DNA of 64,000 nucleotides. Origin: Xestospongia bergquistia. Taxonomy: Eukaryota > Porifera > Demospongiae > Haplosclerida > Petrosiidae. The position numbers were made by a program, and so were the translations under genes. Below are positions 922-49,129 of this stretch, piece by piece. Within the stretch, counting starts at the first letter, position 1. Each line of letters starts with the position of its first letter. Below the pieces are notes generated by a model, which made no database searches, was not told the origin of the DNA, and saw only the letters and a list, made by a program, of their open reading frames with translations. The stretch is taken from the NCBI GenBank assembly GCA_963965975.1, contig OZ014414.1:3757501-3821500 (forward strand), read 5' to 3'.

Positions 922-1004
922 ACGAAACGCATAAATGCGTCGTCGGCGCTGGTGAACAATCAGCCACCGACGCATAAATGCGTCGGTGGCGCGGAAAGGG
1001 TTAA
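922..1004. mobile_element. GC-rich foldback (MITE-like) insertion
   Basis: A GC-rich patch in otherwise AT-rich DNA. It holds two copies of CGCATAAATGCGTCG and a perfect hairpin at 963-990 (13-base arms, AA loop). On the minus strand it opens with TTAACCCTTTCCGCGCC, which looks like a transposon end. It interrupts the GTPase-type exon exactly where similarity to the intact exon at 29738-31801 stops. The left boundary is not certain; it could extend to about 890. No coding capacity. Confidence 0.55.
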
Positions 1005-1244
1005 GAGTCTCATGGTCTATTTTTTTCCACACAGAATCATCACCTACAGTGGCAGATATGATCCTTGCTTCTTTTGCAGTAATTACTGGATTACTGGTAT
1101 GGCAATCTGGAGGGTCTTCATTATAAAGTAGGTTTAAAAAGGATGATTTACCAGTTCCAGGAGCACCTGAGACAGAAAACTTGGTCCACTTAACAGTGAC
1201 ATAGCCTTCTTTCATAGCCTTGTCCAGTAACTTTTTGTTAGCAT
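1005..1244 (-). pseudogene. 5' part of P-loop GTPase exon, truncated
   Basis: The exon starts in phase 1 after an acceptor and reads DANKKLLDKAMKEG, then a beta strand and the Walker A motif GAPGTGKSS. It closely resembles the first 75 residues of the intact exon at 29738-31801, including the shared GAPGTGKSSFL. It ends at VWKK-IDHETLN where the GC-rich foldback begins. Beyond that no DTGGQ motif or COR-like sequence is found on the left, so the GTPase cannot be complete here. The exon follows the 63-bp exon at 2770-2832 and the DD exons further upstream, suggesting the original order leader, DD, DD, linker, GTPase. Confidence that this is a GTPase remnant is high; whether it is still transcribed is unknown. 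Confidence 0.75.
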
Positions 1245-3819: not shown

Positions 3820-4800
3820 TCTAGAATATTATGGGACAGCTATGATCATTATAAGTCTAGATTCAGGGACATTTACACAGTGTACAACTTCTATACATAA
3901 TAGTATAATTATCTACAACATCTTTAACTACAATAGTAACTGTGAACTAAACAGATAAGAATTACTATCAAGTCAATATGTTGGTTCCATGTATGTACAT
4001 GTTATAGAGACATATTATAAGGAGAAACACTGTAAAATCAAAATAAAAGCTCATTCTAAATATCAGTACTACATAAATTGTGATGTAAGAAATAGTTAAT
4101 AAAAATCTATATGAAAGTTTTTGACAACAGAATGATAAAATTTTGTAAGTCAAAAGTTTGCACTATACAGTTTATTGACAGTGACAGTATTAATAAAAAA
4201 CTCATTAATTAATAATAATAATAACTTACCCTGCATAAGCTTTTGACGAATCCTATCAGCTAACTCCTTGCTATTAATAACAGGACTCTTCACAGCAGTC
4301 ATCACTGTTTCCCAGGTAATGGGGGATGGTTTAGTATTTACCCAGATTCTAATTACTTCCTTAATTTTTGCAATATCACTCTTCCAACTGAGTTTTAAAT
4401 CATCCAAAAGATTGCGATGTACTTGTAATGATAATCCAATCTCATACCATTTATCACTATAATACTGAAACTCTACAAACAGATCATCTGGAATCTCTTT
4501 TAGAGTCCTAGGAATAACTGAACAAACAACAAAACAATTATTATAATAAACTGTCATATAATAAATTAATTAGTATCTTAAAAATTATCATTTTATATGT
4601 ATGCAGTTTTCATTAAGTATTAATGAAAACTTCAATTATCAATAAATTTTCATGTAATTTAATGCAGAAAACTGGAATATAAAATTGTAATTATATTTAT
4701 ACAATTAACTAGGACATCTACATGTACTACTATTCTTCTATTGTTAATAACATTACTGTTTATTATTATACTGAAGAAACCTATTTTAATCTTTTGAAGG
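3820..4800. repeat. death-domain unit A, copy 1 with introns
   Basis: Intron sequence on both sides of the DD exon at 4230-4517 is repeated at about 42870-44060, for example the block around TATAAGTCTAGATTCAGGGA. It is partly repeated at 5440-6420, for example the block around ACATCTACATGTA. The duplication therefore copied a whole exon plus flanking introns rather than a processed transcript. Confidence 0.65.
4230..4517 (-). CDS. death-domain exon A1 (288 bp)
   Basis: A DD is a six-helix homotypic interaction module used in receptor and adaptor assembly. The exon runs from acceptor TTTGTTCAG to donor CAGG/GTAAGT, is 288 bp, and is phase 1 at both ends. Visible hallmarks are a DKWYEIG motif in helix 2, the following LSLQV helix with LLDDLKL, then a central IRIWVNTKPSPITWETV (the W-x(n)-TW pattern typical of DDs) and a terminal LADRIRQKL helix. 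The frame is intact. It shares length and phase with the exon at 5620-5907, so the two are tandem duplicates in one gene. Family assignment is by pattern only. Confidence 0.72.
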
Positions 4801-5619: not shown

Positions 5620-5907
5620 ATGTAGTAAGATATCGACGTATCAGATCAGCTGTCTTCTTATCATTAACAATAGGACTCTCAATAGCGGTTATCACTGTTT
5701 CCCAGGTAACAGTGGATGGTTGAGTTGTTAGAAAAATATTAATGACTGCGAAGAATTCGTCAATCCCCTCCCTGTGCCTTAAATCATCCAAAACACTGGG
5801 AGGTATTTGTAATGATAATCCAATATCATACCATTTGTCACTAATATCTTTTAATAGCCAGCACAGTTCCTCTCTTGTAGGATACTCACTTAATTTACTA
5901 GTAATAC
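5620..5907 (-). CDS. death-domain exon A2 (288 bp)
   Basis: Acceptor GTTATTTCAG and donor CAT/GTAAGA bound 288 bp, phase 1 at both ends. The open frame begins ITSKLSEYPTREELCWLLKD. It contains DKWYDIGLSLQIPPSVLDDL, then TQPSTVTWETV and a terminal helix TADLIRRYL, clearly paralogous to exon A1. Its start phase fits directly onto the 2A-like leader exon at 6864-7089, where a split GG-T codon would join leader and DD. The protein released after 2A skipping would therefore begin with a proline and lead almost at once into this DD. Confidence 0.72.
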
Positions 5908-6863
5908 CTGAAATAACAACAAGATAATTATCATAACAAATGTCACAATGTAAATTAAATCATCCCTTAAAATTATCATTTTAAATGTATGTGGTATTAA
6001 GTGTTGATAAATGAAAACTTCACTTATCAATAAACGTACATGGAATTTAATACAGAAAGTTTCAATGTAAAATTGGTATTATATTTATACAATTAACTAG
6101 GACATCTACATGTAATACTATTCTTCTACTGTTAATAACATTTACTGTTTATTATTCATTGACTTCACTGACACTGATATAATAAAATAAATTTACTACT
6201 TATAACACAATGGTCTGTCATTGGGCTATAAATAGAATATGTGCTATAACTTCTGTGTCAAACAAATACTAAGAACATTCAAGATATTAGGGTGGAGCTA
6301 CTTATTAACTAGTAATACATGGACAATTACTGTCTACAATTATGATGCTCATTTACCTGCTGCCATTATACTCTCTCAGTACTACTTCACAGTGTAGTCA
6401 GGAGTCACCTGACTTATTAAAAAATGTCAGGTTAGGTTTGACATTTGCAGGAGTAATAAGTGTAATCTAATTCATCATTAATGACTAATAAGAAAGTATG
6501 TAACACAAAGGCTATATGTATTTTAATACATTCCTTAGACTACTATTGTAAATATTGATTCCCAACTGCATAATTTAAAGCAAAAAGACTACATGCGTAC
6601 TGGAAATAATTTCTGACCTAATTTCATCAACTATTATCAATTGAGTTAATACTACTTGAGATCATCATAGTTTGGTGAGTTATTATTGTTTATTTGATAG
6701 TCAACTATTATTGACCAGAGTACTATCAGATTATTATGTATAAAATTCTAATTCTGGAATAAATGTTTTGTCCGTAATAAGAGCAATTAATTTAACTCAT
6801 TATAACTGATTAACAAAATTTGTAAAAAAGGACATAGGCTATTCATTTTAATAGTAGAGTTAC

Positions 6864-7089
6864 CTGTTTTAGGTCCAGGATTGAGTTCAACATCTCCTGA
6901 TAAAATAAGAAGAAGTGAGAGAAAGATCCCTAATAATAAAGTAAGATATTTAATCTTCCTGATAATAGTCACTCCATCTATCGTACTACTGCTCTCAATG
7001 TTTGAAGTCTCTTTAGAATGAGTACTATATGATATCTGACGACATGTCCACAATCCAATACTCGCCCTCCATTGAGATATATCAATCAT
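6864..7089 (-). CDS. first exon: hydrophobic leader with 2A-like motif
   Basis: The ATG at 7089 opens a 75-codon exon ending at ACAG/GTAACT in phase 1. Residues 1-47 are polar. Residues 48-63 are strongly hydrophobic (YLTLLLGIFLSLLLIL), preceded by a basic RKIK. Residues 66-73 read DVELNPGP, a complete match to the 2A/2A-like ribosome-skipping consensus D-V/I-E-x-N-P-G-P, with the usual leucine-rich stretch and SG before it. In known 2A elements translation skips the bond between the last Gly and Pro, giving two products. Similar N-terminal 2A leaders have been reported for sea urchin NLR-type immune proteins, where they act as signal sequences in the fraction that does not skip. The next in-phase exon is a DD. 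Other ATGs are possible, but the motif is independent of the start. Confidence 0.78.
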
Positions 7090-15983: not shown

Positions 15984-16296
15984 CTATTAAATATAATAAA
16001 ATATAATAATAATGTTTTAAGACAGTAATGTTAATAAAATCTTTATAGAAAAAACATAATACAACAAAGACAGTACAGGCAGTAGGAACCCTATGGTCCA
16101 TTCAGACTTTTGTATTGTCAATTGTTTCTTTAAATAAATCACTTTCATATAATAACACTGTGTTAGTCATTAAATTGGGAGGATGTCTTTCATACAAGTT
16201 AGAGGCAGATGAGATATAATGTTTATTTTTAACTTTAAATATAATCATAATTATAAATTAGTAATATATGTATTGTTAGAGTAAATCAAAACTTAC

Positions 16297-18110
16297 CATT
16301 CATGGAAAACCAAAGTTGCTGACGAGTTTTATCAATAACATTAGAAATATAACTTTCACAGCATATGAGTGTTTTCTTGTCTTCTTTTAACTCACAGAAT
16401 GTTCTGTAACATATGGTACAGTAAAAATATTCCTCAAGATTTCCTATGTTAGATATATATTGAAAGTTTTGTGTCACCTCACCAATTCCTGTATTGACAA
16501 CATCACGTATAGTACTACATCTTTTGTAAGGATCTGAATTATATACTGCAATCCAATAAATTCCATCAACTAAAAAAACATCACCATAATTAGTGTGTAA
16601 AGTGATGACATTATGATAACGTGGTGTGGAATATAGAGGACGTTTAAGTTGAAAAGCAAGCTGATTTTCGGGACATAGAAAATTGACAACTAATGTAGGG
16701 AAGATACCTAGAGGAAATGGCTTCATATCCCAAGATATAATTAAAGGATCAACATGTTGCTTGAAAGCAGATGGTATAGAGTCATAGTTGGTGGAAGGTA
16801 TAGTAGGAAGGACAGTTGGAATAAAATATTTTTCCTCCTTGGGTAGATAGGCCATAATGAAGAAACTGGTCATTAAATGGAGAAAAATGTCTGCTGTGAA
16901 GTTATCAGAGGATTCACTAAATAGGGACAATGACAATAAGTCTCTTGTAAACAACCTTCATCTTTGAGCTCCCTATAAACACTTGGTCTGATAATGATAT
17001 GAGTACCTTCTATACCGTGAGCTTTGAAATGATCAATCGTTTCAGCAAAAGAGATAAATCAAATCAGAAAGTAAAGTAAATAATGGCTGTGGATGAAGGA
17101 ACACTAGATTAGGTAAGATATCAGGAAAATAAAGAAAGACAGTCAGATTATGATAATACGTTAAAGCTGCTTCCACATCATCAGCTTTAATTTCTAAACT
17201 TTTGCCGATATCTTGGCATTTAGATTTACTGACAATAAATACGTTGGATTGACAAAACTTCTGCTCTAAATCTAGTTTAAACAAAAACCATCGAGTAGGG
17301 GTTGAAACTTTTAGGGAATATTCACATATTTGACAACGGATTTTATCAGCTAGTTCTTTCTCGTACTTGTCTCTGACAAGATTATTGCATTTCCTTTTTC
17401 ACGATACAGAATGGCTTGATCTTTTAGATTTAATTCTTACAATTTTGACCAAAGAATAGAATTTTTGGTTTCTATTGACTCACCAGAATAACCAGGCATC
17501 ACTAGTTCATCATAATTATGTCCCCAATACTATGTAGTGTGGCTTTTGAACATTCTCTTTTTCATTCTTATTTTAAGACATTCTTAGAGGATTTACTGAT
17601 GTTAATGAACGAAATGAAGCTTCAAGAAGCTGTAGGTTAGTAATCTGCCTTCCGACTGGATCACCAATTAGATTTCCTTGAACACTGAAGAACTTAGCTT
17701 TATCATCAAGTCACTCATCCAACTTGTGTGTAAAAATATTGACTGAGTTATATCGTAACAAGGCTGGAGCAATATCTATAAATGGACCATGACCACCAGT
17801 ATCAATACCATAATCCAGTGAACTTTATAAAGCTCTTTAGGCTCCTGTACCTGACCTAACCGTTTGATGATTTGCTTAGATACATCAGACCTTGGTTTTC
17901 TTCTATTGTCGTTATTTGGTTATTTGTTATTTGTGTCTGTGTCTAGTAATGGCTGACACAACTCAGTTGTTACTGGTTCTTCAATTGATCTACCAACTAT
18001 ATCACTTCCCACTTGATGAATTTTGACTTCTGAAGATATTTCCATGTTGTTCTTAATATTTCCAGCAATAATTTCCTTTATATCATCAAGCTCCACTTTG
18101 GTCCATAACA
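16297..18110 (-). pseudogene. decayed P-loop GTPase/COR-like exon
   Basis: This copy of the exon at 29738-31801 keeps long stretches of near identity, for example DDIKEIIAGNIKNNMEIS at the 5' end and YHNLTVFLYFPDILPN and GDVFLVDGIYWIAVY later. It also keeps a good GTAAGT donor at its 3' end in phase 1. It lacks the first 75 residues, so the Walker A motif is missing, and it carries multiple frameshifts and stops (for example near 16955, 17285, 17400, 17580 and 17700). The DTGGQ region survives only as a frameshifted TGGH-like remnant near 17795. It can no longer encode a GTPase. Its 5' truncation point corresponds to where the copy at 1005-1244 ends. Confidence 0.8.
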
Positions 18111-29125: not shown

Positions 29126-29737
29126 CTATAGAATAAATAAGGATAATATTAAAAGATAAAAGTATAATATTATATATATAATGCAATACATGTACAAACA
29201 AATAAATGGTAATGACTTAGTACTGATATAATAATGCAAGCTATTATTAACCCATAAAGCAGAGAATCTTTGACTTGATTTTCATTGTGCTACGATGTCA
29301 ATATGGTATATAAAATGTCATATGAAAGTAACAATTATACCAAAATTAAGTTAGAATGACTTGCTTTTTCGTGATATGTATAGATCAATTTGATAATCCA
29401 AGGCAATTGAAAAATGTAATTCTAAGAATGTGTACTGACATTTTAAAAAAATTATCGTTATTCCATTTTTACTGCTTCTTAAACCAAAGTTATTGATTTG
29501 TCATTGCCACCAAGATCATGTACAAGTGAAAAATCTAATCAATTATCTAAGCTCTACAAATATGGAAAATAAAACTATAGGAATCCTCTCATTCAACATC
29601 AATTATATTATACAATATGCTCAAGAATGTACAGGTGTTAAAGCTAATATGGTCAATTTAGAAATTATAACAGTTACACATCAAATATAACTAGCTTAAT
29701 GAAATTTAAGTAGTTTTTAAGTCTAATTAAAACTCAC

Positions 29738-31801
29738 CTCTAAACCAAGGTAGTTGACGTGTCTCATCAGTGTCAGTTGTTTGAGAGCTATCTTGACAAA
29801 TACACTTTAGTTTGTCATCACTTAAACGACAAAAATGTTCTGAAGCTTTTTTAGGGTACTCATGTATTGTACAATAAAAATATTCATTGACACTTTTCAC
29901 ATTAGCCATATATTGGAATTTACTTATCACTTCATTGATTCCTGTGTTGATGATATTTCGTAAAGTGAAGCATTCTGTAGAAGAGCCAGAATAATATACT
30001 GCAATCCAATAAATTCCATCAACTAAAAGAACATCACCATAATTAGTTTGTAAAGTGATGACATTACGATAACGTGGTGTGAAACGTAGTAGACGTTTAA
30101 GTTGAAAAGCAAACTGATTTTCAGAACATAGAAGATTGACAACTAATGAAGGGAAGATACCTCGAGGAAATGGCTTCATATCCCAAGATAGAATTAGAGG
30201 ATCAACGTATTTCTTAAAAGCACATGGTATGAAGACATAATTGGTCGATGGTGTAGTAGGAAGGACAGATGGAATAAAATACTTGTCCTCCTTGGGTAGA
30301 TAGGCCATGATGAGTAAACTGGTCATTAAATGGAGAAAATTGTCTGCTGTAAAGTCTTGACAGAATCCATTAAATAGGGGCCGTGACAATAAATCTCTTG
30401 TAAAACAACCCTCATCTTTGAGTTCTCTATAATGACTTGTTTTAATAGTGATACGATTACCTTCTATACCATGAACTTTCAAATGATCAATCGTTTCAGC
30501 AAAAGAGATTTTAATCAAATCAGAAAGTAATGTAAATAATGGTTGAGGATGAAGAAACACTACATTAGGTAAGATATCAGGAAAGTAAAGGAAGACAGTC
30601 AGATTATGATAATACATTAAAGCTGCTTTAACATCATCAACTTTCATTTGTAAGCCTTTGCCAATATCTTGGCATTTAGATTTACTCACAACAAATATGT
30701 TGGATTGACAAAACTTCTGGTCTAGTTCTAGCTTAAACAAAAACCATCGAATAGGGACTGGAGCTTTTACGGAATATTCACATATTTGACAACGGATTTC
30801 ATCAGCTAGTTCTTTCTCATACTTGTCTCTGGCAATAGCATTGACAGGAAAGATTACTGCATCTCCTTTTTCACGATAAAGAATGGCTTGATCTTTTAGA
30901 TTTAATTCTGTCAATTTTGACCAAAGAATAAAATTTTTGGTTTCTATTGACTCACCAGAATAACCAGGCTTCAATAGTTCATCATAGTATGTCCCCAATA
31001 CTATGCAGTGTGGCTTTTGAACATTCTCTTCTTCATTCTTATTTTCAGGCATTCTTAGAGGATTAACAGATGTTAATGAACGAAACGAAGCTTCAAGAAG
31101 CTGTAGATTTGTAATCTGCCTTTCAACTGGATAACCAATTAGTTTTCCTTGAACACAGAAGAAGAACTTAGCTTTATCATCAAGTTGCTCAACCAGCTTG
31201 TGTGTAAAAATATTGACTGAGTTATATTGTAACAAGGCTGGAGCAATATCTATAAATGCAGCCTGACCACCAGTATCAATTCCATATATCCAATGAGCTT
31301 TATAAAGCTCTTTAGACTCCTGTACATGATCTAACAATTTTATGATATGCTGAGATACATCAGACTTTGGTCTGTCTTCTATTGCCGTTATTTGGTTAGG
31401 TTTATTTATGTCTGTGTCTGGTAATGGCTGATATGACTCTGGTTCTTCAATTGATCTGCCAACTACATCACTTCCCACTTGATGAGCTTTGATTTCTGGT
31501 GATATTTCCATGTTGTTCTTAATATTTCCAGCAATAATTTCCTTTATATCATCAGGGTTCACTTTTTTCCATAATGATTTCTGATCATCACCTTTGATGG
31601 CAGTTATGACATGTGCTGGACGTGGGGCAACTGCATCACTACTGTTATGGTCATTGTCATTATCACTTGGTTCATCATTATACAGTAGCTTTAGAAAAGA
31701 TGATTTACCAGTTCCAGGTGCACCAGATATTGAAAACTTGGAGAATTCAACAGTTACAAAACCCTTCTTCATAGCTTTGTCCAGTAACACATCATTGGGA
31801 T
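29738..31801 (-). CDS. P-loop GTPase with COR-like region, single 2064-bp exon
   Basis: The longest intact frame in the window: 688 codons, phase 1 at both ends (acceptor TTACTAG, donor AGAG/GTGAGT). Counting from the Val codon at 31790, Walker A GAPGTGKS is at residues 23-30. A polar insert follows, then the G3-type motif DTGGQ at 172-176, followed by AAFIDIAPALLQYN. A G4-like VLGTYYDE at about 264-271 replaces the canonical NKxD. Residues 330-680 are a Cys-poor alpha/beta region with FTRDLL and a long LTSLLIMAYLPKE helix, in the position of the COR region of Roc-COR (ROCO) proteins. The Roc-like core would bind and hydrolyse GTP as a conformational switch. It lies between CARD-like exons (5') and linker plus DD exons (3'). 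No LRR or kinase is seen. Roc-like assignment is strong for the motifs; COR is inferred from position. Confidence 0.8.
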
Positions 31802-31804
31802 CTA

Positions 31805-32360
31805 GTAATAAAATAACTTTATGATTTTTTAAACTTTATTTAATTATCAATTTAACAAACTATGAATGTTAGGTTATAATAAAAATTGTTACTTTTTCAA
31901 AACTCAAACTGTCTGTTAAGAGCTAAAGATTGGGACAACTAAATGAACCTTTTTTTTACAAACAATTGTAAGACTGTCTGAGATGCTATGTGTGACAAGC
32001 AAATTAATCAAAATTGTCCCAAAAAGTCACCTTTCATTTTACTATGATCAGTCTTGTCTACTTACATAGCTCATGCAATGTACTATATCATATAAAAATA
32101 GGTCAGAGTATAAGACCAAAGAAACTATTTAAAAATGTAGTCTCAAGAGTAGTCACTACAAAGGCCAGGATGGATTAGGCAAGGGCTTATTATAGGCTAA
32201 CAGAACAAAAATGTTGCAAATATTAATAGATATAGAAATAGTGCCATCATTAAAGAGCTTTAACCTCCACTATCAACTTGTAGATCTACAAGTCTACTGT
32301 GTACTCTGGATCAATGATAAAATGAAATGGATCTTATCACATACTAGAGATAATAATTCA
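31805..32360. repeat. intron with dispersed repeat
   Basis: The block ATGATCAGTCTTGTCTACTT, with CAGCTCATG-like sequence after it (32045-32170), recurs at 49285-49410 and, more diverged, at 51755-51830. Non-coding repeat present in introns of both the GTPase and the ZU5 gene. Confidence 0.5.
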
Positions 32361-32366
32361 GCATAC

Positions 32367-32681
32367 TTTTATATATTGCCATAATTTTGTCAGCTATGTC
32401 AGCTCGGCCTAGATCTTTCAATACATCCAAAAAGATTGTAAAAATATCAGCATTATGCTTGATACGGTCTTTAACATTATCAAAAATCGTTGCACGACGT
32501 TCTTCTTCAGAATCTCTTGTTCTGTTGTCTCTAACTCTTTTGTATTCAATCTCAGATATAACTTCTCTTGCATAAAGTTTCCTAGCTAAATCAATAGGAT
32601 CAATTGTTGATTCAACAATCAGGTCAGTACATTGAACTAGAGCTTTCTTAGCAGCATCAGAGTTCAATACAGAACCACAAT
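32367..32681 (-). CDS. CARD/death-fold-like exon 2 (315 bp)
   Basis: The acceptor TTGTGTAG and donor A/GTATGC bound 315 bp, phase 1-1, open. After DCGSVLNSDAAKKALVQCTD come helices LIVESTIDPIDLARKLYARE, VISEIEYKRVRD, RRATIFDNVKDRI and a C-terminal IFTIFLDVLKDLG. The spacing (L-x-x-L...LL-x-x-L-x-x-x-x-I/F-x-x-FL-x-x-L) resembles CARD domains, which form homotypic complexes in innate signalling. It could equally be another death-fold subtype. It joins in phase to the 78-bp exon at 34118 (5') and to the GTPase exon (3'). Confidence 0.55.
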
Positions 32682-32689
32682 CTACACAA

Positions 32690-33236
32690 TATAAAAGAAC
32701 AGATAAACAAAACTCATTTATATATATTGGGATAATGAATGAGTTTATGTAAAAGACAAAGTTCAAATAATAGATATCTATTAATTAAACTTTTGATATT
32801 AATTATATAACAATAATATTATATAAGTACTTGCATTGTCATTCATAAATTCATTTTAAATATTTTTATTCCTTGCTTTATATGTATTGCTACAGCTAAC
32901 TAGTTATTTGCTAGTTATTAAAATTAGTAAACAATTATTATCAATGAAGAAAGTACTAACTCTGCAAATAGCATCAAGTAAATGCATATATATTTAATGG
33001 TTTATTTCTTTTGTCAAGCATGAAAATGTCATGTCAAAGTTATGAAAGTTAGCACTTATGAAGTGCTATAGAAGACAAACATGAAAAACTTGTTTGATAG
33101 ACAATTTGCTAGTCTAATACTTTTAAAATACATTCTGACTAACACAGAAAAGACTTAACGACCTAAAAACATTGGATAATGAAAATTAGGTGTTTATATA
33201 AGATATTTTTTAAGGCTACAAAGTGTGACAAATAAT
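32690..33236. other. intron, no gene seen
   Basis: AT-rich sequence between the CARD-like exon and the left arm of the inverted repeat; nothing supportable. Confidence 0.3.
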
Positions 33237-36859: not shown

Positions 36860-38740
36860 TATACTTACTTCTTTTTTCTCTTCCTTCTTTCTCATTTTTT
36901 CTAATTTCGTTTTCTTTTTTTCTTCAATTGCCATACGATTCTCTGCATGTAGTAAATACAAAGAGTATTAATTGATTAAAGTATTCATTATATTAATGCA
37001 ATTACTTTTTGATCTTTCTCTTGCAAGTCTCTGAAGTTCGGCTTCTTTTTTCTTCCTATTTCTTTCTTCTAGGGCACATTTTTTTTCCTTTTCTTCCAAA
37101 GATTTTTTTTTCTTAAAGCATCTTACGATTTTCGTTGCTTGTCAAAACACGAGCAGATGTCTTTGCTTCTTTTCTTGGAAGTTTAGTATTTAGCATTTCA
37201 TTTTAAAATTTGGAAAGAGTGGTGATTGAGGTAAGTTGACAACTTTGAGATCCATGACATTTTTCTACTTCATGTCTAGAAGTATCAGGTGAACATGAAA
37301 CAGAAAAAGGAAAAAGCTCCCCAACATTTGGTGATGAAGAATGTGGTGTACCTTGAGGATGATACATTTCAATCCACTTGTTATATCATACATCAGTCTC
37401 TAAATTGTAGCCTTCCTCATAACGTCGTTGAAAACATAATATCTCTTCAGTAGTGAAGGTAGTATTATGTACTGGAGATCTATGTCTTGATAGAGATGGG
37501 CTATAAAGGGGAAGGTAATGGATTTTCTTGGCTTCTAAATCTCTCATTCTAGATTTTACAGGTTTTTTAATAAAAACAGCTGCTCTGTTAATAGGGTAAA
37601 CTCCAGTGGTACGAAAACCATTTTCCATTGTCATGCTTTGAGTCCATGCACGTCGAAAAACCTGACAAAATGTAAACCTGGTGATAACCTTTCCAGGGTT
37701 TGAACTTAAGTAATTATGGCACTCCTCTCACCAATATCTCTTTAAAATTGAAAAACATCCCTTATCAAGGGGCTGAGTCAAGTGTGTAGAATGAGGTAGT
37801 AAACAAAACATAATTATTCCTTCCTCTGCAGCTTTATTAATAACAGACGAAGTATAATGAGATGAATGTCCGTCTAACAATAAAAGCAATGGATGAAGTG
37901 GTGGAGTATGAGATAGAAAATGATGCCTGAACCACAGATCAAACAGTTCACCATCAATCCAGCCACTCTCTGACAAGCCATACATTGACCCTGGCACCTC
38001 TCCTACAGTCATTTCAGCCTTTAATGTCTTTTAGTCAAACACTATCATAGGTGGCAAGACATGGCCACTTGCACTACAACAAGACAACACAGTAATTTGA
38101 GTTTTGTTATGGGTAGTAATGGATTGAGTATGTTTTTGCCCTTTCTGAGCAATTACTTTAGGAGGTGCTGGGTCTAGTGGCATACCAGTTTCATCATAGT
38201 TATATATTTGGCAAGGTCTACTGGACAAGTCATTTTGATCTAATGTTTCTTCAAGGATATCAAAATAATGATCAAGTGCTTCAGGTGAGGTATACACGCC
38301 TCTAACATAGGAAAGTTGTTCAGGATTTCTAAGACATAGTGATGGATGTCTTTTTCTAAAAGAGTCCCACCAACCATTTGTAACAGTAACATTTATGCCT
38401 TTTTGGTGGACAACACTTTCAATGATGGCTAAAATTTGCTTGAGAGACTTAGCAAGTCCTATAGATGAACAACCAAGAAGAAACTGCACAAGTTCTTCCT
38501 CTTAAACATCACTAAAGTATTTTGTTGGTCCACTGACAAATCCAAACATCACTTTTCCCGGGAGGCAATCATGTAAAGAACTTTTTGGTACATTGTATTC
38601 TTCGGCTGCTCTTCGGACAGATATACCACTCAATACTGCTTCATAAGCTTTAAGTAAATTACACTTTTCATAAAGCTTGTTTTGTGAAGTGTGCTCAGAT
38701 GTGCTTGATAGGAAAGGCCTATGATTACTGCATGATTGAA
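36860..38740 (-). pseudogene. pogo/Tigger-like transposase, broken
   Basis: In order on the minus strand: a psq-type helix-turn-helix (ISVRRAAEEYNVPKSSLHD) near 38600; a CENPB/Tc5-like DNA-binding region (SYVRGVYTSPEALDHYFDIL) around 38250-38450; the first catalytic block NYDETG near 38200; LLLLLDGHSSHYTS with the second Asp near 37880; FCLLPHSTHLTQPLDKGCFS near 37780; and a Lys/Glu-rich C-terminal tail to about 36865. A TAA sits after FSDV near 38502, another after PPMIVFD near 38030, and frameshifts occur near 37700 and 37120. This is a dead copy of a cut-and-paste DDE element. Terminal repeats were not located. Confidence 0.85.
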
Positions 38741-38799
38741 AAGTTCTGTCAACTATAAGCAGATGTTGAGATGACAGCTGTATTAGAAAGTATTTTATT

Positions 38800-39160
38800 A
38801 ATAAAATTAATAGTAACAGATAAATTAGTTATACACACAAATTATTTCAATTAGTTTAACTTGTGTTTAACAAGTTGTCACTTCATTTATCCTATTATGA
38901 AATCCGGCCCACCTTACATTATTATGCTTTAAATTAACCACAAGTTCATAGTGTCTTCAAAACCAGCATAATGTTCCTTTATAACATCATTACAAACATA
39001 CAGACATACCCCCCAATACTGCTTCATTACAAATTACTTCACTCTACATTCAAGAAACAGATTGACTTACCATAACAAATCGTTATATAAATTCTTATAT
39101 ACATGGTAATACCATACTACATCATGACATGAAGTTATCTAATATTTTGATGATACGTAT
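38800..39160. other. no gene seen
   Basis: AT-rich spacer between the transposase relic and the kinase pseudogene. The transposon's right end should be here, but I could not pair its ends. Confidence 0.3.
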
Positions 39161-48292: not shown

Positions 48293-48431
48293 CTGTTTAA
48301 AGTAAGTATTGTATATAATTAGTATGTTGGGATTAATTCACTATTTATTTTTTGTCAATAAGCATACAATTGCTGACTCACTAGGACTGTCCTAAACATT
48401 TTATTCCATACATACATCAGTATATTCTTAC

Positions 48432-49076
48432 TGGTTGCAAAATGATGTCTAATAGCACTACAAACTACACCTCCGAGAACTACTCCTGCTATACTCAATG
48501 TGGCACCACCGACTGAATCTGTTAGAATTCCTCCTGGTCCCAATATGGTACCACCAACTGCACCTCCTAAAACTAGTCCTAGACACAAAATGGCACTGCT
48601 AGTTGCACCTCCTAGAACTACATTTCCTAGACCGAATATGGCACCACCAACTACAGTACGGAGTACAATAGCTAGATATGAAAATTCTTTGAGATGTATA
48701 GTCCCATAATGTAAACCAGGACAAAATGATCCTCCTGGTAGGTATTCAAACTTGAAGGGTGGACCAGATTTAGCAACAACAAAACTGAGATATTGTGCTT
48801 GATTCTTATCAGTGATATTAGCACAATGTTCTAGTTGAACGATAACTGGTTTATTAAGTTGAGATGAGGTAGATACCGATATATGGCACACACCACTGAT
48901 AAGATGGCTGTTTTCAGGAAATTCAAATTCGTCATCCCACAATACATTTGCAGTAATTTCATATGAAGCAACTACTGGTGTGATAACTTGTGCAGGTATT
49001 AAAATTTTTAACCCACATTCTTCAACTGATAACTGTTGATCTTTAGCAGCACTAAACTTAGAATAGTTCTTTCCTA
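48432..49076 (-). CDS. ZU5 domain followed by glycine-rich hydrophobic repeats
   Basis: The exon is 645 bp, phase 1-1 (acceptor TTTTAG, donor A/GTAAGA). ZU5 hallmarks in order: LSVEECGLKILIPAQVI, VVASYEITANVLWDDEFEFP, HLISGVCHISVSTSSQLNKP, VIVQLEHCANI, AQYLSFVVAKS, FKFEYLPGGSF and HYGTIHLKEFSYLAIV. These correspond to the ZU5 core of UNC5, PIDD and ankyrins. ZU5 packs against UPA and DD to hold them inactive in UNC5. Directly after the domain the exon continues for about 75 residues of Gly/Ala/Val/Leu repeats with period about 16 (VVLGGATSSAILCLGLVLGG, AVGGTILGPGG, VVLGGVV), then IRHHFAT. This tail is not part of known ZU5 domains and looks membrane-inserting. The plus-strand Pro-rich frame here is the shadow. 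Confidence 0.8.
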
Positions 49077-49129
49077 CTAAAATTTTAATAGATTAGTGTA
49101 ATAATAATTATATCATATATTGACAATAC

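Follow-up and report, generated by a model that had tools for sequence, protein, structure and literature searches.

The ribosome-skipping 2A signal is best known from viruses, and Odon et al. reportedly described in 2013 its presence in non-LTR retrotransposons of the APE type. According to the available part of the paper by Roulston et al. (2016, PMC4981915), NLR proteins of the sea urchin Strongylocentrotus purpuratus start with N-terminal "2A-like" signal sequences of 26 residues; the authors estimate qualitatively that recoding amounts to about 80%, and the unskipped product enters the exocytic pathway. The accessible text of Li et al. (2026, PMC12846837) presents StopGo as a device that cellular genes rarely use and assigns LLLLSG-like sequences to the upstream classes 2/6 of RNA viruses, with a class-6 example being active in lysate. 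As cited there, Rao et al. (2025, Cell Rep 44:115822) surveyed eukaryotic and viral 2A, cellular proteomes included, and this survey may already list the leaders considered below. Search in the literature joining 2A, StopGo or ribosome skipping with sponge, Porifera or Amphimedon, most subscription papers being outside its range, yielded nothing alike, and the words sponge, Porifera and Amphimedon are absent from PMC4981915 and PMC12846837.

Here we analyse a stretch of 64,000 nucleotides of sponge DNA (the window, C4:3757501-3821500 in a 146-Mb assembly), for which an initial annotation had proposed a 2A leader in front of a death-domain (DD) gene. Genome comparison was made within this one assembly, and the counts obtained by genome searches are lower bounds.

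Results

Leader exon and its family

On the minus strand of the window an ATG at position 7089 opens the reading frame that reads, from the window DNA, MIDISQWRASIGLWTCRQISYSTHSKETSNIESSSTIDGVTIIRKIKYLTLLLGIFLSLLLILSGDVELNPGPKTG, and positions 7089-6864 code for MIDISQWRASIGLW…LLLILSGDVELNPGPKTG. The coding part of this leader exon (6864..7089, minus strand) has 226 bases, that is 75 codons and one base, and is followed by a phase-1 GT donor at 6863-6862 (AAAACAG/GTAACT after 6864). It is composed, in this order, of a cap, a variable middle, an uncharged hydrophobic run, SG and DVELNPGP. The conserved cap MIDISQWRASIGLWTC (7042..7089, minus strand) corresponds to the family pattern MIDxxQWRxxIGxWxC, derived from residue counts in 93 leaders, and the hydrophobic run LTLLLGIFLSLLLIL occupies positions 6901..6945 (minus strand). 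The core of the StopGo/2A octapeptide DVELNPGP (6871..6894, minus strand) matches (D/G/C/N)(V/I)ExNPGP with the predicted skip point between Gly (6876-6874) and Pro (6873-6871), and its context LLLILSG before D is by comparison of the L-rich class 2/6 type, deviating at position 15. Thus, the minus-strand reading frame bears out the earlier claim that a hydrophobic tract directly precedes a canonical 2A at the N-terminus. A candidate acceptor, TTATAG/TAATG, lies just 5' of the ATG and would allow an intron in the 5' UTR, but its final G, at -3, is shared by only part of the leaders (see below). At the other end the acceptor TTATTTCAG/GT at 5908/5907 would make with the leader the phase-1 junction NPGPKTGITSKLSEYPTREE, and this predicted join at 5907 fits the in-phase splicing to a DD exon that had been put forward for this locus.

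The strict 2A motif was registered genome-wide in at least 161 places (at least 95 with DIExNPGP and at least 66 with DVExNPGP), and the cap motif MIDxxQWR in at least 125. Control search with the reversed 2A pattern gave 0 places genome-wide and the control for the cap also gave 0, which rules out a chance motif. Among the 100 cap places listed, 85 are followed on the same strand by the strict 2A, at a distance of 165-210 nt that is every time a multiple of 3. Of the 161 strict motifs 136 are situated inside a leader of the window's kind. The window leader, therefore, belongs to a large family of leader exons. In the genome 119 distinct 2A places were read, and 93 of them, capped according to a relaxed pattern, served as the measured leader set; the other 26 include PHD-type copies as well as leaders with broken or altered cap that still hold 2A.

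The measured leaders have 62-77 residues up to NPG. A hydrophobic tract is present in all 93 of them (mean hydropathy over 15 residues 2.1-3.5); the run begins about 48 residues into the leader, its most hydrophobic 15 residues stop 0-3 residues before D, and the 14 residues preceding SG carry no charge in 89 leaders, as is the case in the window. Downstream of NPGP, 92 leaders have their first GT in phase 1, and the remaining one has no GT in reach. A purine occupies the -3 position relative to the ATG in 91 leaders (G in 51 and A in 40), and an in-frame stop was found 1-37 codons 5' of the ATG in 69, while for the other 24 the fetched stretch ended first. In the cap, W14 is present in 93/93, R8 in 92/93, Q6 and G12 in 91/93 leaders, and motif position 15 is occupied by Leu in 87/93. 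The ratio dN/dS, computed on 55 of the 93 leaders after thinning, was 0.06 for the SG before the octapeptide, 0.25 for the cap and 0.35 for the hydrophobic part. The value of 0.11 obtained for the octapeptide is biased, because the leaders were gathered by that very motif, and the value of 1.56 for the linkerC block was set aside, since this block is unaligned.

Three copies of the leader (C4:3757094-3757327, C4:3338608 and C4:3609710) have a common make-up of four stop codons and represent a dead leader that was itself duplicated. The first of them ends 174 bases before the window start.

Retention of the 2A motif

Three sets of leaders not gathered by a 2A pattern were used to judge whether the motif is retained. 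Among the 100 listed cap places 15 are without the strict 2A; two of these read GVELNPGP, and the remaining 13 are truncated, frame-broken or have no leader. The second set was collected with the query P0234, a leader taken from a public assembly, where it is located on a 4.3-Mb contig. Its identity to the sequences found in this genome does not exceed 61%, and for this reason it probably comes from another species. With P0234 as a query 144 leader copies were found in the genome, and 136 of them, a few having a stop inside the leader, overlap the strict 2A. Of the eight others, two read GVELNPGP, five are interrupted by stops or shifted in frame, and one, C14:894043, was left unread.

The third set came from public proteins. 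Search with the window leader ORF, the words of which may include the 2A itself, gave 166 homologues, and among the 120 listed 114 have (D/G)(V/I)ExNPGP. The other six are represented by NVELNPGP, DLELNPGP, one sequence stopping mid-motif, two shifted in the motif, and DVELKPGP with a shift. Since 11 of the 120 listed public ORFs include an exact copy of one of the leaders of this genome, the public set is partly from the same or a near species. A profile built from 15 leaders matched at least 2,165 public proteins at E<=0.1, the scored ones being those candidates that share most words with it. In the part of Li et al. (2026, PMC12846837) available to us, G and N at the first core position are permitted variants, and L at the second one is not listed.

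Wherever a leader copy has no recognisable 2A, its reading frame is broken, C14:894043 not being counted. As judged from these sequences, retention of 2A is attributable to the leader and not to the bias of the search. Leaders with broken or altered cap that retain 2A include L013, L055, L059, L066, L068 and L079, so the presence of 2A does not show that the copy works.

Putative death-domain exons and the truncated gene of the window

The first DD exon (5620..5907, minus strand, with the acceptor at 5908 and the donor GTAAGA after 5620) and the second one (4230..4517, minus strand), which is 47% identical to it, are in phase 1 at both ends. With the first exon alone, Pfam search gave no match at E<0.1 and comparison with PDB sequences gave no death-domain match. 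A mixed profile of 11 such exons matched the FADD death domain at 1e-8, the same list having also designer repeat proteins with similar E-values and no stretch that passes alone. A profile from five exons of the window's type ranked FADD first with E 0.03, and profile comparison with a set of three Death-type exons, one of which passes the Pfam Death cut-off and two match weakly, gave E 4.5e-5 at a probability of 69%. An AlphaFold model of the DD exon from two sequences had a mean pLDDT of 53.5 and was left out of account because of this low quality. We accept the window exon as a putative death domain chiefly because of the family profile, this label being weaker than the identification of the leader.

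The paralogue L046 (C4:3568300-3577300) has a leader protein identical to that of the window and shares with it 98.98% identity over 6,370 bases, including the leader, both DD exons and introns. It continues to an open Roc ORF of 684 residues and then to the third DD exon. In the window the Roc (P-loop GTPase) exon is present only as its start (1003..1244, minus strand), where similarity to the intact L046 ends and the remaining Roc-COR is missing; only residues 1-97 of the 684-residue ORF are matched (window 1293-1003). Neither the rest of this ORF nor the third DD was found in the first 8 kb of the window or in the adjoining L042 stretch, and the window copy is therefore truncated at its 3' side. 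Probably it is not a working DD-GTPase gene and, if expressed, could yield the leader, two DDs and a Roc stub.

Other GTPase-like sequences were registered in the window. The neighbour ORF 29727-31835 matched COR-A with E 6.9e-7 and 29.7 bits, below the cut-off of 35.3, while the Roc ORF of L046, 51% identical to it, gave no COR-A match of its own. No 2A was found within 12 kb upstream of this Roc-COR ORF, and a weak CARD match (32344-32784, minus strand, E 0.001, below cut-off) is located just upstream of it. A Roc-COR copy with 11 stops at 16286-17398 (minus strand; C4:3773804-3775315) is the second broken GTPase gene of the window. A ZU5 domain, which often accompanies death domains, was detected above the cut-off at 48355-49092 (minus strand, E 1.8e-5).

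Genes downstream of the leader

The leader precedes well over a hundred genes, many of which are of the death-domain or NLR immune type. A conserved exon with constant phase is attached to four architectures: CARD-like-NACHT with a leucine-rich tail, preceded by two DDs (L039) or following the leader directly (L041); DD with an ankyrin array further down (L040, L044); multi-DD (L043); and DD-DD-Roc-COR-DD (L046, L047). Pfam search detected NACHT in L039 (E 9e-20), ankyrin repeats in L040 and one Death match above the cut-off (L039:1442-1777); for the CARD-like exons and the LRR after NACHT, both assigned by eye, it gave no match. Junctions of the leader with the following exon were predicted from sequence at eight loci, and all eight are of phase 1 with AG at the acceptor.

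About half of the NACHT matches turned out to have the leader motif: for 48 of 95 genome-wide, a 2A is located on the same strand no more than 6 kb upstream. Thus the contrast drawn in the initial annotation, which attached 2A to a DD/Roc family and not to NACHT proteins, does not hold, and the same leader is found before DD-ankyrin and multi-DD genes as well. As a class, the leaders place a 2A N-terminally on NLR-type proteins; the window copy itself resides on DD exons, not on NACHT. Among the 47 NACHT matches without a 2A within 6 kb upstream 29 form a cluster on C2 (8.83-9.15 Mb). The genome thus has NLR-type genes of two kinds, those bearing the leader and those of the C2 cluster, with no 2A in the 6 kb upstream.

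The attachment of the 2A leader to DD-Roc genes, also proposed earlier, was substantiated by seven Roc-COR ORFs on C4 that have a 2A 3.1-8.1 kb upstream. Among the 65 Roc-COR matches listed, at least nine have a 2A within 12 kb upstream, at least seven of them within 8.1 kb; these are lower bounds, because the protein search scored 63 of 600 candidates. It was used in place of the COR-A model, which scores the leader-associated Roc family poorly: the search for the COR-A family as a route to leader-bearing Roc genes was abandoned, with 3 of 146 COR-A matches lying within 9 kb downstream of a 2A.

Possible mobility of the leader exon

The tree of leaders is built on few columns and has 18 of its 89 inner branches starred. 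Thirteen C4 leaders, including seven of Roc genes and four of the window type, form a supported group (96/92). In a tandem NLR array on C11 two leader lineages are interleaved along the array: one is composed of the leaders at 418460, 431451, 444330, 451522 and 464977 (fork 88/99, unstarred), and the other of those at 424786, 437685 and 458665 (100/100); the C11 leader at 471488 is absent from the tree. This interleaving, together with the phase-1 design, suggests that the leader exon may have been exchanged between genes.

Discussion

With a probability of about 0.68 we consider the exon to be the first coding exon of a large host gene family of the innate-immune type, which would work as a StopGo leader with dual targeting. 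At NPG/P the nascent leader would stall the peptidyl-transferase centre of the ribosome. In most rounds a leader of 62-77 residues would be freed and synthesis would restart at proline, giving a cytosolic receptor of the DD-DD-Roc-COR-DD, CARD-like/DD-NACHT, DD-ankyrin or multi-DD type. In other rounds the bond would be formed, and the receptor would retain near its N-terminus the uncharged hydrophobic segment, which could direct it, unskipped, to the ER or membrane. Because about 10 residues separate the end of the hydrophobic run from the skip site, the run would still be inside the ribosomal exit tunnel at the moment of the skip choice. Skipping by this leader would be expected from the experimentally active sequence class it resembles, dual targeting by analogy with the sea urchin experiments, and immune function is suggested by the domains. 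The run starts about 48 residues into the leader, later than in the 26-residue urchin leaders, and signal-sequence activity is therefore less certain. Leu at position 15, where classes 2/6 are associated with Ser, and the truncation of the window's own gene also count against this reading.

A pure targeting role leaves the conserved cap unexplained, and to our knowledge neither StopGo nor signal sequences need such a cap. Its presence hints that the freed leader, or its N-terminus, may have its own job, and from this the main rival explanation arises. StopGo would be nearly complete and serve co-production, so that each receptor mRNA also gives one conserved membrane microprotein composed of the cap and a hydrophobic tail ending with NPG, for instance a tail-anchored partner or tether, while the receptor is always cytosolic. 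The almost invariant cap (W14 in 93, R8 in 92, Q6 and G12 in 91 of 93 leaders; dN/dS 0.25) speaks in favor of this possibility, as does the hydrophobic run, which in the freed leader would be separated from the C-terminal end by about 10 residues. A cap needed solely for targeting would, however, be conserved as well, and the related sea urchin leader sent its unskipped product to the exocytic pathway, according to the available text of PMC4981915. We regard co-production as rather unlikely, giving it more weight than the other alternatives. One can also imagine an ordinary signal anchor with a non-functional remnant of 2A and a single membrane-attached product. The hydrophobic segment found in 93/93 measured leaders would suit it, but the strict 2A is kept in 136 of 144 copies and (D/G)(V/I)ExNPGP in 114 of the 120 listed public ORFs, the codons of the motif bear synonymous changes, and the G and N variants are those that Li et al. 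found permitted (PMC12846837, as far as its accessible part goes); we regard this anchor as quite improbable.

Least credible, and hardly to be expected at all for the window, is the assumption that a CR1-like non-LTR retrotransposon carrying 2A left the exon behind as a relic. The genome does contain 2A followed by an in-frame PHD finger (L018, L023, L045), and further down L023, in another frame, there is a stretch resembling by eye the start of an endonuclease. The window leader, in contrast, has no PHD finger after its 2A and no Pfam match, and it has cap, spacing and splice donor in common with the leaders beside NACHT, ankyrin and DD genes. Pfam search in the leader ORF gave no match to a PHD finger or endonuclease in frame after the leader, and the exons that come next are DD and Roc, so the exon stands as a host one, as the initial annotation had it. 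The relic was thus rejected for the capped leader class and retained for the separate PHD class; an ancient origin of the capped leader from such an element is possible. A dual-targeting StopGo leader of host genes remains our preferred reading.

A second 2A class was noticed at 10 places in C4:8604524-8907047 (L045, L081 and L082 were read), which follow each other in a tandem-like order. It has its own hydrophobic N-terminal start, an L-rich tract, DIELNPGP and a PHD finger (L045), and in L045 a death-domain ORF is located 1.7 kb downstream. This class may be a second type of leader, or else what remains of a retrotransposon that was amplified together with DD genes. Within the window itself, consecutive ORFs at 37386-38828 (minus strand) look by eye like a broken DNA transposase of the pogo/Tigger type; Pfam search with two pieces of them gave no match.

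A more general picture can be offered tentatively, at somewhat less than even odds. A portable StopGo exon with a QWR cap would have spread over the death-fold immune repertoire, on at least four architectures and seemingly as a mobile unit, in a lineage apart from that of the sea urchin, and the receptor would be co-made with a membrane microprotein and/or split between two compartments. From one leader gene two forms of the protein may be made, as predicted, one bearing a membrane-directing tag and one lacking it, and the gene families that carry the leader are of a type involved in the choice between immune response and cell death. About 140 leader copies in one genome contrast with the rare cellular use of StopGo, and they make up a natural library of variants in which the tuning of skipping efficiency could be measured. 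They are also a warning for annotation: being short, the 5' exon of these genes can easily be overlooked.

The principle is already known from the NLR leaders of the sea urchin, and what is new, as far as seen, is the scale, the cap and the sharing of the leader by DD-Roc, DD-ankyrin and multi-DD genes. Judging by the available parts of the corresponding papers, the two systems are alike in the hydrophobic tract followed by D(V/I)ExNPGP, in its N-terminal position on NLR-type proteins, in the many members of the family and in the presence of 2A also in retrotransposons of the same genome. Unlike the urchin leaders of 26 residues with the tract at the very N-terminus, those described here have 62-77 residues with the tract after about 48; the cap MIDxxQWRxxIGxW is not described for the urchin leader in the accessible text of PMC4981915, and the association with DD-Roc, DD-ankyrin and multi-DD genes likewise distinguishes the sponge family. 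With classes 2/6 (as outlined in the part of PMC12846837 available) it shares the L-rich tract ending with (A/S/C)G before D(V/I)ExNPGP, whereas those viral sequences are internal in polyproteins and are associated with Ser at position 15, and here the motif is N-terminal in cellular genes, with Leu at 15. As in 2A of the APE-type retrotransposons, the motif follows an L-rich tract, but in the retrotransposon-type copies of this genome (L018, L023, L045) a PHD finger and a further ORF come next, and none of these stands after the window leader. Thus, the sponge leaders would represent a second use of the sea urchin trick, this time by a leader of another build that has a conserved cap peptide.
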